Source: an uncultured Oscillospiraceae bacterium (GTDB lineage: Bacteria > Bacillota > Clostridia > Oscillospirales > Oscillospiraceae). From it: a stretch of DNA of 34,999 bases. Positions 12,822 to 17,988 of the stretch are shown piece by piece. Numbering within the stretch: position 1 is the stretch's first letter; every line of letters begins with the position of its first letter. The notes under the pieces were generated by a model that saw only the letters and a list, made by a program, of their open reading frames with translations, was not told where the DNA came from and made no database searches. The translations under genes were made by a program, and so were the position numbers. The DNA lies in the NCBI GenBank assembly GCA_947587025.1, contig CANPXW010000016.1, positions 1 through 34,999 on the forward strand, given 5' to 3'.

Positions 12822-12885
12822 CACGAGATACCTTGACAGGCGAGGTATCTCGTGTTATTATACCCTCACAAGATACCTCGCGAGG
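12822..12885 (+). promoter_or_regulatory. padR promoter with overlapping PadR-type operators
   Basis: TTGACA (12833-12838), 17 bases and TATTAT (12856-12861) form the promoter. A perfect 12-base inverted repeat, CACGAGATACCT (12822-12833) and AGGTATCTCGTG (12843-12854), overlaps the -35. A third half-site, AAGATACCTCG (12870-12880), pairs with the second across the -10. Half-sites on both sides of the polymerase site are what an autorepressor would use; PadR is the obvious candidate. Confidence 0.8.
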
Positions 12886-12919
12886 CGAAGTACATCACCA
12901 TTTGAAAGGAGGGAACGCC

Positions 12920-13255
12920 ATGTCCATATCTGCGGACATCCTGCGGGGACACACGGACGCCATCATCCTGGCCCAGCTGGCGGCCGGAGACAGCTACGGC
13001 TACGAGATCAACAAGAACGTCTCCCAGCGGGCAGGGGGCGCGTACGGGTTCAAGGAGGCCACGCTGTACACGGCCTTCAAGCGCCTGGAGCAGAACGGGC
13101 TGATACGCTCCTACTGGGGGGAGGACGGGCCGGGGGCCCGGCGGCGCTATTACGCCATCACCCTGGCGGGCAGAGAACAGCTGGCGGCGGACCGACAGGA
13201 ATGGAGCGAGACGAAAGCGGTGCTGGACGCACTGATCGAGCAAAAGGAGGGCTGA
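12920..13255 (+). CDS. PadR family transcriptional regulator
   Basis: A 111-residue PadR-type winged-helix protein. It has the PadR core: LRGHTDAIILAQLAAGDSYG, then YEINKNVSQR, FKEATLYTAFKRLEQNG and RRRYYAITLAGREQL, with a short C-terminal helix for dimerisation (subfamily 2). The ATG at 12920 is preceded by AAAGGAGGG; an open frame running upstream through the operator is not coding. It is followed after 2 bases by a DUF1700/DUF4097 gene, a frequent partnership in Firmicutes. The inverted repeats over its own promoter suggest autoregulation. Confidence 0.93.
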   Translation: MSISADILRGHTDAIILAQLAAGDSYGYEINKNVSQRAGGAYGFKEATLYTAFKRLEQNGLIRSYWGEDGPGARRRYYAITLAGREQLAADRQEWSETKAVLDALIEQKEG

Positions 13256-13257
13256 AC

Positions 13258-14622
13258 ATGGAAGACATCAAGCGCAGATTTGCAAACGAGATCGCGGCAA
13301 AGCTGTCCGGCGCCCCGGAGAGCGACGCGAAGGCCGATATGATCGAGGAGCTGGCGGAGAATCTGGCCAGCCGCTACGATGAGATGATATCCGGCGGTAT
13401 GGGCGAAGGGGAGGCTTTCCAGAAGGCCATGGACCAGCTGGGAGACGTGGACGAGCTGACGGCGTATCTCTGCAGCCTGGAGCCGGAGGGGACCGGACCG
13501 GAGACCGGCGCGGCCCGGACGGACATGGACGAGTTCTTCCAGTCCGTCGGGGATATGGGCAGGGCCATCGGGGACATGGCGAAGCAGGCCGCCGGCGCGG
13601 CCGGGGACTTTTTCCGCAGCGACAGCTTCCGGGACGGCGTGCGCAGCGCGGCCCAGGAGGGGAAAAAGGCCGCCCGGGAGGCCCGGGACTTTATCAAGGG
13701 CGCGGCCGGCGCGGTCTGGGACGGGGCTTCGGCGTACATCCGTGTGGACGACGACGGCACGGTGATCGGACGGGGGGACAAGAGCATCCATTTCGGCTGG
13801 CCGGCCCAGGACAGCGAGGATGAAAAAACTGTGCCGTCCCAGAACGTGCTGCGCCTGGACGTGGAGACCACCGGCGACGTGGACATTTTTCTGGACGGCG
13901 GCGCTGACGCCCCTGTACGGGTGGAGGGGAACATGTCCCGGCTGGACGTGTCCGTCACAGAGGACGGCGTACTGAAGGTGCGGCCGCTGGTCACCGCCAG
14001 CAACCAGTTCTTCACCTTCCGGGGCGCCTCCAGTCAGGACGTGTCCCTGACCATCCCGGTCCGGGCCTGGGAGAGCATCCGGGTATCCACCGGAAGCGGC
14101 GACGTGGACATAGGCTACGATCTGGAGGTGGGGAGCCTTGCCGTCACCACGGCCAGCGGCGACATCGACTGCCGGGTGAAGAGCTGCCAGCAGGTAGAGA
14201 TCAGCACCGCCAGCGGGGACGTGTCCCTGGAGGGCAACGCCGCCGCGCTGCGCATCGAGACGGCCAGCGGCGATGTGGAGCTGGATGGACCTGTTGGCCA
14301 GGCGGAGATCAAGACGGCCAGCGGCGACGTGGAGCTGTCCGGCTCCGTGTGGAAGGCGCGCGTAAAGTGCATGAGCGGCGACATCCGGCTGGAGAGCATG
14401 ACCCTGCCGGAGGCGATGGACCTGTCCTCCAAGAGCGGCGACATCGAGGTCCGCATCCCGGACAACGGCCCGTTCAAGGTGAACGCCTCCAGCGTCAGCG
14501 GTACGGTGGACCTGCGGCCCTTTGCCAAGTGGTCCTGGTCCGGCAGCGCCGACCCGGCCGCCCCCACGCCCCGGTATACCCTCGCCAGCATCAGCGGCGA
14601 CGTGTCGCTGGACAAGTGCTGA
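13258..14622 (+). CDS. DUF1700/DUF4097 protein with beta-helix-like SGD repeats
   Basis: A 454-residue protein. Residues 1-75 resemble DUF1700: a helical region with MIEELAENLASRYDEMI and EAFQKAMDQLGDVDEL. Residues 95-155 are Ala/Gly/Lys-rich and predicted helical. From about residue 195 a DUF4097 (putative adhesin) beta domain follows, with the motif SGD at 280, 300, 319, 337, 355, 373, 393 and 446, and SGT at 414. The 18-21 residue spacing is one turn of a right-handed beta-solenoid. There is no signal peptide, membrane segment or wall anchor, so the protein is probably cytoplasmic despite the adhesin label. The start at 13258 follows AAAGGAGG. It is co-transcribed with padR. Confidence 0.88.
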   Translation: MEDIKRRFANEIAAKLSGAPESDAKADMIEELAENLASRYDEMISGGMGEGEAFQKAMDQLGDVDELTAYLCSLEPEGTGPETGAARTDMDEFFQSVGDMGRAIGDMAKQAAGAAGDFFRSDSFRDGVRSAAQEGKKAAREARDFIKGAAGAVWDGASAYIRVDDDGTVIGRGDKSIHFGWPAQDSEDEKTVPSQNVLRLDVETTGDVDIFLDGGADAPVRVEGNMSRLDVSVTEDGVLKVRPLVTASNQFFTFRGASSQDVSLTIPVRAWESIRVSTGSGDVDIGYDLEVGSLAVTTASGDIDCRVKSCQQVEISTASGDVSLEGNAAALRIETASGDVELDGPVGQAEIKTASGDVELSGSVWKARVKCMSGDIRLESMTLPEAMDLSSKSGDIEVRIPDNGPFKVNASSVSGTVDLRPFAKWSWSGSADPAAPTPRYTLASISGDVSLDKC

Positions 14623-14702: not shown

Positions 14703-15494
14703 TTATTTCATATAGTATGCCGCGACGACGCTGGAGACCAGGATGCCGTCCACCTCGCCCTTCATCAGAGCCTGGAACAGCCCGTCGGTGTTGGTCTGGT
14801 AGATGACCGAGCCCAGGCTGTTTACGAAATCCTCGTCCTGATACAGCACGTCCTGGTCCGTCACGGTCACCCCCAGCACCTTGCCCTTGAGCCCGGAGCG
14901 GCGGCGGATATGGCTGCCGGCGCGGGCCACCAGCACGTACTGACTGTTCAGGTAGGCGGGGGAGTAGTCGAAGTTCTCCGACAGGTCCGCCTCGGATACC
15001 GCCATGGCGATGTCGATGTTGCCGGCGTTCAGCTCCACCTCGGCGTTGCCGATGTCGATGGGGTAGAAGCTGACGGTCCAGCCCAGGTAGTTGCATATGT
15101 AGCCGATCAGGTCCACGTCAAAGCCCACGTACCCGCCGCCAACCAGGTAGCTCATGGGCATGTTGGTCACGTCGATGCCCACGGTGACGCTGCGCTGGGG
15201 CAGCTCCTCCCGCAGGGGCTCCAGGGCGTCGTCGTCCCCCCGGACGCTGACCAGGTTCTCTCCGAACCAGCTGATGGAGGCGGCCCGGAGGGTGTTGCCG
15301 GCGGCCAGCTCCTGCAGGGCGGCGGACACATATTCCCGCAGATGGTCCCCCTTGCGGAAGGCGATATAGTAGCTGCCCTCGCCGCTGTACTCGTCCACGA
15401 TCCGGTAGCCGTTGCCGCTGCTGGAGCAGCCGGCCGCAGCCAGGAGCATGCCCAGGCACAGCAGTATGCAAAGGATGGACCGGAATGTCTTCAT
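14703..15494 (-). CDS. Solute-binding lipoprotein with circularly permuted SBP_bac_3 fold
   Basis: A 263-residue lipoprotein: signal peptide with lipobox LAAAGC (Cys23), AAGGAGA before the ATG. Its segments match the amino-acid-binding family but in permuted order. Residues 29-80 (YYIAFRKGDHLREYVSAALQ, then NTLRAASISWFGEN) match the C-terminal end of normal binding proteins, for example EEYGVGFRKGSDLAQALNDF of the neighbouring gene. Residues 102-191 (SVTVGIDVTNMPMSY, GFDVDLIGYICNYLG, NIDIAMA) match the N-terminal lobe, and 202-263 match lobe 2, ending exactly where normal proteins would enter the segment now at the N-terminus. It follows the ABC transporter genes but has its own promoter and terminator. 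Permutation is my reading from motif order; ligand unknown. Confidence 0.85.
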   Translation of the reverse strand: MKTFRSILCILLCLGMLLAAAGCSSSGNGYRIVDEYSGEGSYYIAFRKGDHLREYVSAALQELAAGNTLRAASISWFGENLVSVRGDDDALEPLREELPQRSVTVGIDVTNMPMSYLVGGGYVGFDVDLIGYICNYLGWTVSFYPIDIGNAEVELNAGNIDIAMAVSEADLSENFDYSPAYLNSQYVLVARAGSHIRRRSGLKGKVLGVTVTDQDVLYQDEDFVNSLGSVIYQTNTDGLFQALMKGEVDGILVSSVVAAYYMK

Positions 15495-15509: not shown

Positions 15510-15542
15510 AAAAGTAAGCCGCAGGCGATCCCTGCGGCTTAC
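15510..15542 (-). terminator. Terminator between the ABC ATPase and the permuted lipoprotein
   Basis: A perfect 12-base stem (15514-15525 with 15531-15542) is followed on the minus strand by TTTTCT. It should stop part of the transcription coming from the ABC operon. Confidence 0.65.
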
Positions 15543-15571
15543 ATAATACAGTATATTCTGCAGAAAATCAA
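15543..15571 (-). promoter_or_regulatory. Promoter of the permuted lipoprotein gene
   Basis: On the minus strand TTGATT (15566-15571, overlapping the ATPase stop), 17 bases and TATTAT (15543-15548). The start point would fall inside the first arm of the terminator stem, so new transcripts would not form the full terminator while read-through transcripts would. Confidence 0.55.
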
Positions 15572-16353
15572 GAGGACGTGTAGCTTTCCAAAAACCGGCG
15601 GGTGCGTTCCTGCACCGGCGCGCCGATGACCTGCTCCGGCGGGCCCTGCTCCACCACCACGCCCCCGTCCATGAACGCCACCTGGGTGGACACGTCACGG
15701 GCAAAGGCGATCTCGTGGGTGACGATGATCATGGTGGTCTGCTTTTCCGCCAGGCCCCGTATCACCCGCAGCACCTCCTGGGTAAGCTCCGGGTCCAGGG
15801 CACTGGTGGGCTCGTCGAAGCACAATATGTCCGGCTGCAGGGCCAGAGCCCGGGCGATGGCCACCCGCTGCTGCTGGCCGCCGGACAGCTGGTGGGGGTA
15901 ATTGCCCATCCGGTCGGCCAGGCCCATCTGCTCCAGCAGATGCCGGGCCCGGTCGTCGATGTCCCTGTATATCTGTTTTTTCCGGGAGCTGAAATCCGGT
16001 TCCTGCTTTGCCAGCAGCCTGCCTGCCAGGGTCACGTTCTGCAGGGCGGTGTACTGGGGGAACAGGTTGAAGGACTGGAACACCAGCCCGAAGTGCAGCC
16101 GCTTGCGGCGGATGTCCGCCTCCCGCTGGGTGGCCGGGTCGGCGGCGTCGAACAGCACCTCGCCGTTCACGGCGATGGAGCCGGCGTCGGGGGTCTCCAG
16201 AAAGTTCAGGCACCGGAGCAGGGTGGTCTTGCCCGAGCCGGAGGAGCCGATCAGCGACAGCACCTGTCCCTTCCCAAGGGAGAGACTGATGCCCTTCAAT
16301 ACCTCGGTCTGGCCGAAGCTCTTGCGAATGTCCTTTACGTCCAAAATAACCAT
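15568..16353 (-). CDS. Amino-acid ABC transporter ATP-binding protein
   Basis: A 261-residue ATPase of the polar amino acid (GlnQ/HisP) type. Walker A is GSSGSGKTT, the Q-loop follows in VFQSFNLFPQYTAL, the ABC signature is LSGGQQQR, Walker B is ILCFDEPTSALD, and the switch His is in VTHEIAFA. The start is ATG 16353 behind GAGAGGGGG, 14 bases after the permease stop. It powers the permease encoded upstream in the same minus-strand operon (binding protein, permease, ATPase). Confidence 0.96.
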   Translation of the reverse strand: MVILDVKDIRKSFGQTEVLKGISLSLGKGQVLSLIGSSGSGKTTLLRCLNFLETPDAGSIAVNGEVLFDAADPATQREADIRRKRLHFGLVFQSFNLFPQYTALQNVTLAGRLLAKQEPDFSSRKKQIYRDIDDRARHLLEQMGLADRMGNYPHQLSGGQQQRVAIARALALQPDILCFDEPTSALDPELTQEVLRVIRGLAEKQTTMIIVTHEIAFARDVSTQVAFMDGGVVVEQGPPEQVIGAPVQERTRRFLESYTSS

Positions 16354-16367
16354 GTCCGTGCCCCCTC

Positions 16368-17054
16368 TCAGCGGAAGTAGTCCAGGCGCTTTTCCAGCCG
16401 GCCCAGCGCCACGGTGACGATGCCGTTGAAGACCAGGTAGTACACGGCGGTGAAGAACAGCGGCCAGATGGCCCCGGAGATGCCGTGGGAGCCCTTCAGG
16501 AATGCCTGGCCGGCCCAGATGATCTCCTGCAGGGCGATGATGCGGGCCAGAGCGGTGTCCTTGACCAGGGTGATGACCTCGTTGGACATGGGCGGCACGA
16601 TGCGCTTTATCACCTGCAGAAGGGTCACCCGGAAGAAGATCTGGCTCTTGGTCATGCCCAGCACCAGGCCCGCCTCCTGCTGGCCGGCGGGGATGGACTG
16701 GATGCCGCCCCGGTATATCTCGGAGAAGTAGCAGGCGTAGTTGAAGATGAAGGCGATGGCGGAGGCCGTGAACCGGCCGGCCTCGCCGCTGCCCCAGATG
16801 TTCTTGCCCAGTACCATGCCGGGGAAGTAGAAGATGATCAGCAGCTGTATCATCAGGGGCGTGCCCCGGACCACCCACACCACCAGGCGGGTCAGCCAGC
16901 TCAGGGGCTTGAAGCGGCTCATGGAGCCGAAAGCGATCACCAGCCCCAGGGGGATGGCCCCCAGGCCGGTGACGAAGAACAGCTTCAGTGTCTGCAGAAA
17001 GCCCACGTTCAGCGCCTTGAGCACCACGGGCATCTGCTGGAGGATAAGTTCCAT
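16368..17054 (-). CDS. Amino-acid ABC transporter permease
   Basis: A 228-residue membrane protein of the HisM/GlnP family with about five transmembrane helices. The N-terminal segment carries FLQTLKLFFVTGLGAIPLGL, and the cytoplasmic EAA loop is EAGLVLGMTKSQIFFRVTLL, which contacts the ATPase. The ATG at 17054 follows GGGAG. It lies between the binding protein (76-base gap with a stem-loop) and the ATPase (14-base gap). The substrate is probably a polar amino acid, but cannot be named from sequence. Confidence 0.95.
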   Translation of the reverse strand: MELILQQMPVVLKALNVGFLQTLKLFFVTGLGAIPLGLVIAFGSMSRFKPLSWLTRLVVWVVRGTPLMIQLLIIFYFPGMVLGKNIWGSGEAGRFTASAIAFIFNYACYFSEIYRGGIQSIPAGQQEAGLVLGMTKSQIFFRVTLLQVIKRIVPPMSNEVITLVKDTALARIIALQEIIWAGQAFLKGSHGISGAIWPLFFTAVYYLVFNGIVTVALGRLEKRLDYFR

Positions 17055-17130: not shown

Positions 17131-17988
17131 TTACTCTGCGGCCTCGGCGTCCGCAGCCTCGGCGTCTGCGGCGGAGGCGTCGGCGGCCTCCTCGGCCAGC
17201 TCGGTCTGGTCGATCAGAGAGGCCTGCACGCCGTAGGTCTCGGCGATCTCTTCCATGGTGCCGTCCTCATAGCTGGCCAGGAAGAAGTCGTTCAGGGCCT
17301 GGGCCAGGTCGGAACCCTTGCGGAAGCCCACGCCGTATTCCTCGCTGTTGAGGTTGACGGTGTTCACCAGGTCCTCGTAACCGGTGCCCTCGCCCACCAT
17401 GGCGGCGGCCATCAGCAGGTCGATGACGGCGGCGTCAGAGGTGCCGGCGCTGACCTCCAGCAGGGCGTCGGCCTGGGTCTGCACGGGGGTGGTGGCATAG
17501 CCAAGGGCCTCCACCTCGTCCTCGCCGGCGCTGCCGGCCTCCACGGCGAACAGCAGGTCCGCCATGTCCTCGGCGGTCTCATAATCGCCGGCCACATCGG
17601 CGGGCAGGATCACGGTCTGGGCGTTGTTGCAGTAGGCGTTGGAGCACTCCATGGCCTCCAGGACCTCGTCGTTGAGGGTCATGCCGTTCCAGACCACGTC
17701 GATGGTCTTGGCGTCCAGCTCCAGGACCTTGTTGTCCCACTCGATCTCCACGAACTCCACGTCCACGCCCAGGCTCTCGGCAAAGGCCTTGGCCATGTCG
17801 GCGTCAAAGCCGATCCACTCGCCGTCCTCGTCCTTGTAGTCCATGGGGTCGAACTCGGTGATGCCCACCACCAGCGTGCCCTTGTCCTGCACGTAAGCCA
17901 TGTCGCTCTCGGCCTCGTCGGCCAGGGCGAATACGGACATGCTCAGCAGCATCAGCGCCGCCAGGGTGAGAGAGATGATCTTTTTCAT
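17131..17988 (-). CDS. Amino-acid ABC transporter substrate-binding protein
   Basis: A 285-residue SBP_bac_3 protein in normal order. A Sec signal peptide (residues 1-23, cleavage after ALA) is followed by lobe 1 (TLVVGITEFDPMDYKDEDG, GFDADMAKAFAESLG), lobe 2 (about 100-195) and the return to lobe 1 (EEYGVGFRKGSDLAQALNDF). There is no lipobox Cys, unusual for a Gram-positive binding protein, and the chain ends in about 20 residues of only Ala, Glu, Asp and Ser. How it stays at the cell surface is not clear. AGGAGG precedes the ATG at 17988. First gene of the binding protein-permease-ATPase operon. Confidence 0.93.
   Translation of the reverse strand: MKKIISLTLAALMLLSMSVFALADEAESDMAYVQDKGTLVVGITEFDPMDYKDEDGEWIGFDADMAKAFAESLGVDVEFVEIEWDNKVLELDAKTIDVVWNGMTLNDEVLEAMECSNAYCNNAQTVILPADVAGDYETAEDMADLLFAVEAGSAGEDEVEALGYATTPVQTQADALLEVSAGTSDAAVIDLLMAAAMVGEGTGYEDLVNTVNLNSEEYGVGFRKGSDLAQALNDFFLASYEDGTMEEIAETYGVQASLIDQTELAEEAADASAADAEAADAEAAE

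Follow-up and report, generated by a model that had tools for sequence, protein, structure and literature searches.

Natural circular permutation is mostly observed when distantly related proteins are compared. Among solute-binding proteins (SBPs), the closest precedent found for the case described here is TpMglB-2 (Tp0684), a type I glucose-binding protein that is circularly permuted, has relatives in Gram-positive bacteria, and was proposed to form the class "Type Ic / Cluster Bc"; it binds ligand and changes shape, and its authors raised anchoring as a possible reason for its order (PMC4990184). We found a lipoprotein gene at 14703-15494 on the minus strand of a 34,999-nucleotide stretch of DNA from an uncultured Oscillospiraceae gut bacterium (contig CANPXW010000016.1; the whole stretch is referred to as the window), whose product is almost certainly a type II (SBP_bac_3) SBP that was circularly permuted in nature, as judged from sequence comparison and a structure model. 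TpMglB-2 has a type I fold and a single permutation, with both ends in one lobe and an added fourth crossover (PMC4990184), whereas the permutants discussed below belong to a type II amino-acid family in which cuts occur at three or more points, the order has switched several times, and close ordinary-order relatives as well as fused duplicates are found. The class Type Ic / Cluster Bc requires a type I sugar-binding fold, whereas the window protein is SBP_bac_3 by sequence.

The SBP_bac_3 proteins GlnBP, AncQR, and ArgBP belong to the same sequence family and contain the same fold segments as the window protein, but in the order N-lobe, lobe 2, C-segment. The tandem substrate-binding domains of the GlnP type (e.g., 6h30) and fused double SBPs carry two SBP copies per chain, as do three proteins in our sample (L129, L171, and L060), but both copies in the GlnP type are complete and in ordinary order, whereas the window protein is one rotated copy. 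For a ribose-binding protein, structures of permuted halves are reported (PMC9815098); that protein reportedly serves as a model of fold origin and is not a natural permutant of the SBP_bac_3 family. No report of natural permutation in SBP_bac_3 (type II) proteins was found in the full-text literature, most subscription papers being outside its reach, and in PMC7683729 and PMC2912341 the permutation term is confined to the reference lists.

Segment order of the window protein

Each SBP_bac_3 fold segment is present once in the window protein, and the ordinary order is absent. The sequence-only reading of this DNA had proposed the coordinates, the lipobox, and the segment order, all of which held when checked in the sequence. 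The features of the gene, all on the minus strand, are as follows (lobe and hinge limits follow GlnBP).

14703-15494, minus strand: gene for the almost certainly circularly permuted SBP_bac_3 lipoprotein, 263 residues, order C-segment, linker, N-lobe, lobe 2; stop codon included
15426-15494, minus strand: signal peptide and lipobox, the Cys being residue 23 (invariant in 38/38 rows of alignment A1)
15372-15413, minus strand: residues 28-41, the last lobe-2 strand and second hinge of the ordinary protein, here N-terminal (from alignment and predicted structure)
15249-15371, minus strand: residues 42-82, C-terminal part of lobe 1 (YYIAFRKGD...ISWFGENLV; from alignment and profiles)
15195-15248, minus strand: residues 83-100, linker between the native C- and N-termini
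14940-15194, minus strand: residues 101-185, N-terminal part of lobe 1 (from Pfam, alignment, and profiles)
14706-14939, minus strand: residues 186-263, lobe 2 as far as the cut, ending in VVAAYYMK (from alignment and profiles)

The Pfam profile SBP_bac_3 (PF00497) covers only residues 103-244 of the window protein (71.4 bits; gathering cut-off 26.4). Compared with AncQR (4zv1) by phmmer, the window protein covers that chain once and in swapped order, its residues 103-263 matching 12-176 and its residues 28-79 matching 181-233. The latter piece is weak and not significant taken alone (i-Evalue, the independent E-value, 1.1), therefore we built test profiles exclusively from ordinary-order SBPs (53 rows, the C-segment profile using those with more than 25 residues there). 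On the window protein, the C-segment profile scores 26.4 bits (residues 31-79), against a maximum of 5.4 bits in 2000 shuffles of the mature protein, and the profile of N-lobe and lobe 2 scores 91.5 bits (residues 101-260; maximum 4.4 bits in 2000 shuffles). Further, a profile of other proteins with the order C-part, N-part, lobe 2 (A4; this order is referred to as CNL) recovers 4zv1 at 5.6e-13, aligning 27-79 with 180-232 and 104-276 with 7-178. No full-length match in the same order was present in the best 60 of the 170 PDB chains matched by the CNL profile.

The rotated order is conserved in a family of homologues. In alignment A1, which consists of the window protein and 37 homologues with 27-86% identity to it, the C-segment precedes the N-part in 38/38 rows, and no chain ends more than about 20 residues from a common position in lobe 2. 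A complete second C-segment at the C-terminus of homologues, which would mean fusion or truncation, was looked for, and 0/38 rows have room for it. The structure predicted for the whole chain has a predicted local distance difference test score (pLDDT) of 91.3 and a predicted template modelling score (pTM) of 0.81, and residues 29-80 are unlikely to form a separate domain. Three lines of evidence support the permutation proposed earlier: independent profiles, the fixed order in a family of homologues, and the close ordinary relatives that other permutants show after rotation (see below).

We took the large lobe of GlnBP to comprise residues 5-84 and 186-224, and the small lobe 90-180. The sequence-only reading had put cut and join at the same structural point; by these limits the join does fall at the native termini in lobe 1, but the cut lies in a lobe-2 loop, as residues 28-37 or so form the last lobe-2 strand. 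Besides CNL, we found a second order, cut elsewhere in lobe 2 (referred to as LCN), and a few proteins cut at a third point, i.e., three different cut points in total. By the GlnBP limits, all three cuts would lie in lobe-2 loops and all joins at native ends in lobe 1, so that the new N-terminus and its lipid anchor would move from lobe 1 to lobe 2 in all three cases. That the anchor sits on a different face of the protein, as had been suggested, follows from the segment order; what use this has, whether in presentation to the permease or in a sensor, is conjecture. Between the old ends the linker is short, with a median of 19 residues in the CNL proteins (n=49) and of 30 in the LCN proteins (n=24); a gene that occurs repeatedly was counted each time.

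Spread and relationships of the permuted orders

Our search covered the phylum of the window genome. At least 50 of the 200 genomes of the window's family, including the window genome, have a same-order match by our count by eye, where a match starts no later than residue 45, reaches residue 207 or beyond, and lies in a frame of fewer than 420 residues, and the segment profiles were not run on each. The window genome itself holds a second permuted copy, downstream of ATP-binding cassette (ABC) genes (C116:1195-1983, 64% identical). The CNL order, which the sequence-only reading had proposed to look for in homologues, occurs across 13 family codes within the class of the window genome, often directly beside a permease gene: the 76 CNL rows of our tree (see below) represent 12 family codes and seven loci of genomes named Oscillospiraceae, and L205 adds the thirteenth code. 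Among the matches listed in the phylum search (398 genomes), most are ordinary proteins. Outside the window's class, an LCN permutant adjoins permease and ATPase genes (L206 2676-3491, in G896). Permuted-order matches also occur inside frames of 1000-1570 residues in G182, G019, G025, G133, and G198, which presumably encode tandem SBP domains of large sensor proteins.

To place these proteins on a tree, we rotated 144 of them to a common order, consisting of 76 CNL, 53 ordinary, 12 LCN, and 3 third-cut rows. Identical N-lobe cores had been merged (CNL from 106 to 77, ordinary from 57 to 53, LCN-type from 23 to 16), which removed the window record, and L001 (the same protein) and L078 were then omitted, leaving 144 rows; four proteins without a C-segment match and two long proteins were left out of the row set. 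A 44-row clade, referred to as the window clade, is purely CNL, and the order label is strongly clustered on the tree. Permuted orders are nonetheless scattered among ordinary ones: the FastTree of 144 rows needs a minimum of 15 changes of order, and, for CNL, 5 changes are required even if its well supported branches alone are considered; the minimum for a hand-picked set of 50 rows is 13. In this 50-row set, grouping all CNL rows in one clade is rejected by approximately unbiased (AU) tests (p 6e-56), as are one clade of all permuted rows (p 3e-23) and one of those CNL rows that lie outside the clade containing the window's ordinary SBP (p 8e-4).

Ordinary relatives at 50% identity or more after rotation were found for 26/76 CNL, 12/12 LCN, and 3/3 third-cut rows. 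The most similar permuted and ordinary proteins, L050 (CNL) and L105, have 70.5% identity over 237 residues after rotation and form a well supported pair on the 50-row tree. Rotation lifts the local score of this pair from 695 to 890, and that of an LCN pair from 404 to 742.

Outside the window clade, a permease gene lies directly downstream of at least 26/32 CNL rows, and of 17/17 distinct LCN proteins in the loci examined (both counted by eye); most of these permutants thus occupy the place of a transport SBP. We take LAO R77 to be the Arg that binds the carboxylate of the amino acid, and D161 the Asp that binds its amino group. The Arg is kept in 29/32 and the Asp in 32/32 CNL rows outside the window clade. 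Because binding residues are kept and the genes stand where a transport SBP would, many of these permutants most likely deliver amino acids. Some transporters are flanked by two permutants: the gene order is CNL, permease, ATPase, CNL in L117, L119, and L120, and LCN, permease, ATPase, CNL in L118 and L121, i.e., two different rotations around one transporter.

The window clade and its gene neighborhood

In the window clade, the Arg position is filled by Arg in 1/44 rows (L036, where it lies in a charged insert), the preceding Thr/Ser is kept in 5/44, the lobe-2 Ser/Thr in 5/44, and the Asp in 25/44. The window protein itself lacks the Arg and has Ser in place of the Asp, as seen by eye. In 28/44 rows, a transporter ATPase gene is located no more than about 1.1 kb upstream, on the same strand. 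The clade is a derived side branch and probably has a role different from ordinary amino-acid delivery. The window protein would most likely bind a different ligand, or report on or modulate the neighboring transporter, perhaps from its own promoter, although we are far less sure of this than of the permutation. On the 50-row tree, three members of the clade group with L023 and L044 (support 93), two CNL proteins whose genes stand where an SBP would and whose binding residues are intact. Descent of the window clade from a working permuted amino-acid SBP is only plausible, because the 144-row FastTree does not show this grouping and places L023 and L044 beside the ordinary L066 and L071.

On the minus strand of the window, the gene order is ordinary SBP, permease, ATPase, permuted lipoprotein.

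17131-17988, minus strand: ordinary-order SBP_bac_3 protein (N-lobe, lobe 2, C-segment, referred to as NLC; Pfam match at 40-253)
16368-17054, minus strand: ABC transporter permease
15568-16353, minus strand: ABC transporter ATPase, upstream of the permuted gene (start chosen by eye)
15543-15571, minus strand: promoter-like site TTGATT-17-TATTAT upstream of the permuted gene
15514-15542, minus strand: terminator-like hairpin of 12 pairs and a T-run, between the ATPase gene and the ribosome-binding site of the permuted gene

By eye, the window's ordinary SBP likewise lacks the carboxylate-binding Arg, and the substrate of its transporter may therefore differ from a plain alpha-amino acid. Val replaces this Arg in 17/53 ordinary and 10/12 LCN rows, and relatives of the ordinary SBP in other genomes include LCN permutants. 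On the other strand, convergent with the permuted gene, are a regulator gene, presumably PadR-like as seen by eye, and a gene for a protein with many short GD-containing motif repeats (12833-14622).

The promoter-like site is directly followed by the hairpin and then by the ribosome-binding site (15514-15571); in eight aligned sequences (the window, close homologues, and the second copy of the genome), bases of the stem are changed. A similar site and hairpin were seen by eye in 10/11 upstream stretches of the window's subclade, including that of the window, and L043 is without them. A looser promoter pattern, chosen after the window had been seen, occurs upstream of 20/38 genes, compared with 2.9% of letter shuffles, although close homologues are not independent. 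Separate expression of the permuted gene is likely.

Proposed origin and meaning of the rotations

Two genes encode apparently recent in-frame tandem duplications that may be intermediates of permutation. One, upstream of a permease gene, encodes a protein of 560 residues with two complete SBP copies, 84.4% identical over 237 residues (L129 3413-5092), and the other a protein of 528 residues with copies 82.4% identical over 205 (L171 1321-2904). In addition, two ordinary SBP genes of L188 share a reading frame and are separated by a single stop (50.6% identical). We infer a route in which an SBP gene would be duplicated head to tail and its copies fused in frame, after which the start of copy one and the end of copy two would be lost. 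The old termini would then be joined by a linker and the new termini would lie in a lobe-2 loop, the fold being retained; lobe 1 would become the continuous lobe, and the lipid anchor would shift from lobe 1 to lobe 2.

Combining these points, we tentatively suggest, at rather less than even odds for the account as a whole, that type II SBPs of Bacillota (Oscillospiraceae and relatives) permute recurrently and convergently. The three lobe-2 cuts would arise via surviving fused tandem duplicates, with the roles of the lobes swapped and the anchor placed on lobe 2 by selection, and in one permuted lineage amino-acid binding would have been lost, the protein turning into a lipoprotein that acts as a sensor or regulator and is expressed separately. 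Several points weigh against our main explanation of the window protein, which comprises the permutation, the inferred route, and the changed role. Among window-clade rows, 16/44 have no neighboring ATPase gene in the DNA examined, and in about nine of the 28 ATPase-linked rows the intervening gap is 0.75-1.05 kb, enough for another gene. In the scanned stretch of the window, promoter-like sites and hairpins are not above shuffles (1 vs. 0.8 and 1 vs. 1.9, respectively). De-duplication left the window protein itself out of the trees, where it is represented by L037 (86% identical) and by the paralogue L002. The number of separate permutations is uncertain, because the tree cannot separate gains from returns to ordinary order, and the ordinary rows are a biased sample, mostly found via permuted profiles. 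Finally, no ordinary protein at least 50% identical to the window clade was found among the sampled rows, and the segment profiles are the evidence there.

It is very improbable that the window protein is a truncated or fused product, in which a leftover C-terminal SBP piece precedes a second SBP that has lost its C-terminal part, with no working fold. The proposed route does include duplication and trimming, and ligand residues are lost in the window clade, but order and lipobox persist in all 38 rows of A1 across 27-86% identity with nearly the same end point, the structure models are confident, and the CNL permutants outside the clade mostly stand directly upstream of a permease (at least 26/32) with their Arg in place (29/32). 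The permuted order could also have had a single origin and been inherited, the scatter on the tree being due to error, reversal, or horizontal transfer. We consider this improbable given the AU tests, the three cut points, and the well supported L050/L105 pair of different order at 70.5% identity, even though the 44-row clade is purely CNL, the label is strongly clustered, and reversals to ordinary order are indistinguishable from new permutations.

A more serious contender, yet still an unlikely one, is that the window clade is a second SBP for the neighboring permease and still delivers ordinary amino acids. Its genes are 3' of the ATPase gene in 28/44 rows, the model retains the fold, and the Asp is kept in 25/44 rows; this is opposed by the near absence of the Arg (1/44, in an insert), by the loss of the preceding Thr/Ser and the lobe-2 Ser/Thr (each kept in 5/44), and by the hairpin and promoter-like site that separate the gene from the ABC genes in close homologues. 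Whether the permutation is neutral, with lobe-2 loops simply tolerating new ends and the anchor shift being useless, is in our view close to an even bet. Permuted and ordinary proteins share an operon place, so both appear to serve. By the GlnBP lobe limits, each of the three cuts lies in lobe 2 and shifts the anchor there from lobe 1, which suggests selection but could equally reflect tolerance.

The recurrence of permuted orders in other lineages and the loss of amino-acid-binding residues in the window clade go beyond the sequence-only reading. Identity between permuted and ordinary proteins reaches 70%, both kinds occupy the same operon places, and apparent duplication intermediates exist alongside them, so that the route and cost of permutation are directly testable in this family. 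Annotation with ordinary-order profiles catches only part of a permuted protein, and the permutants offer natural scaffolds with lobe-2 ends for biosensor design. More generally, these SBPs provide a natural test case of a chain rewired without loss of shape.
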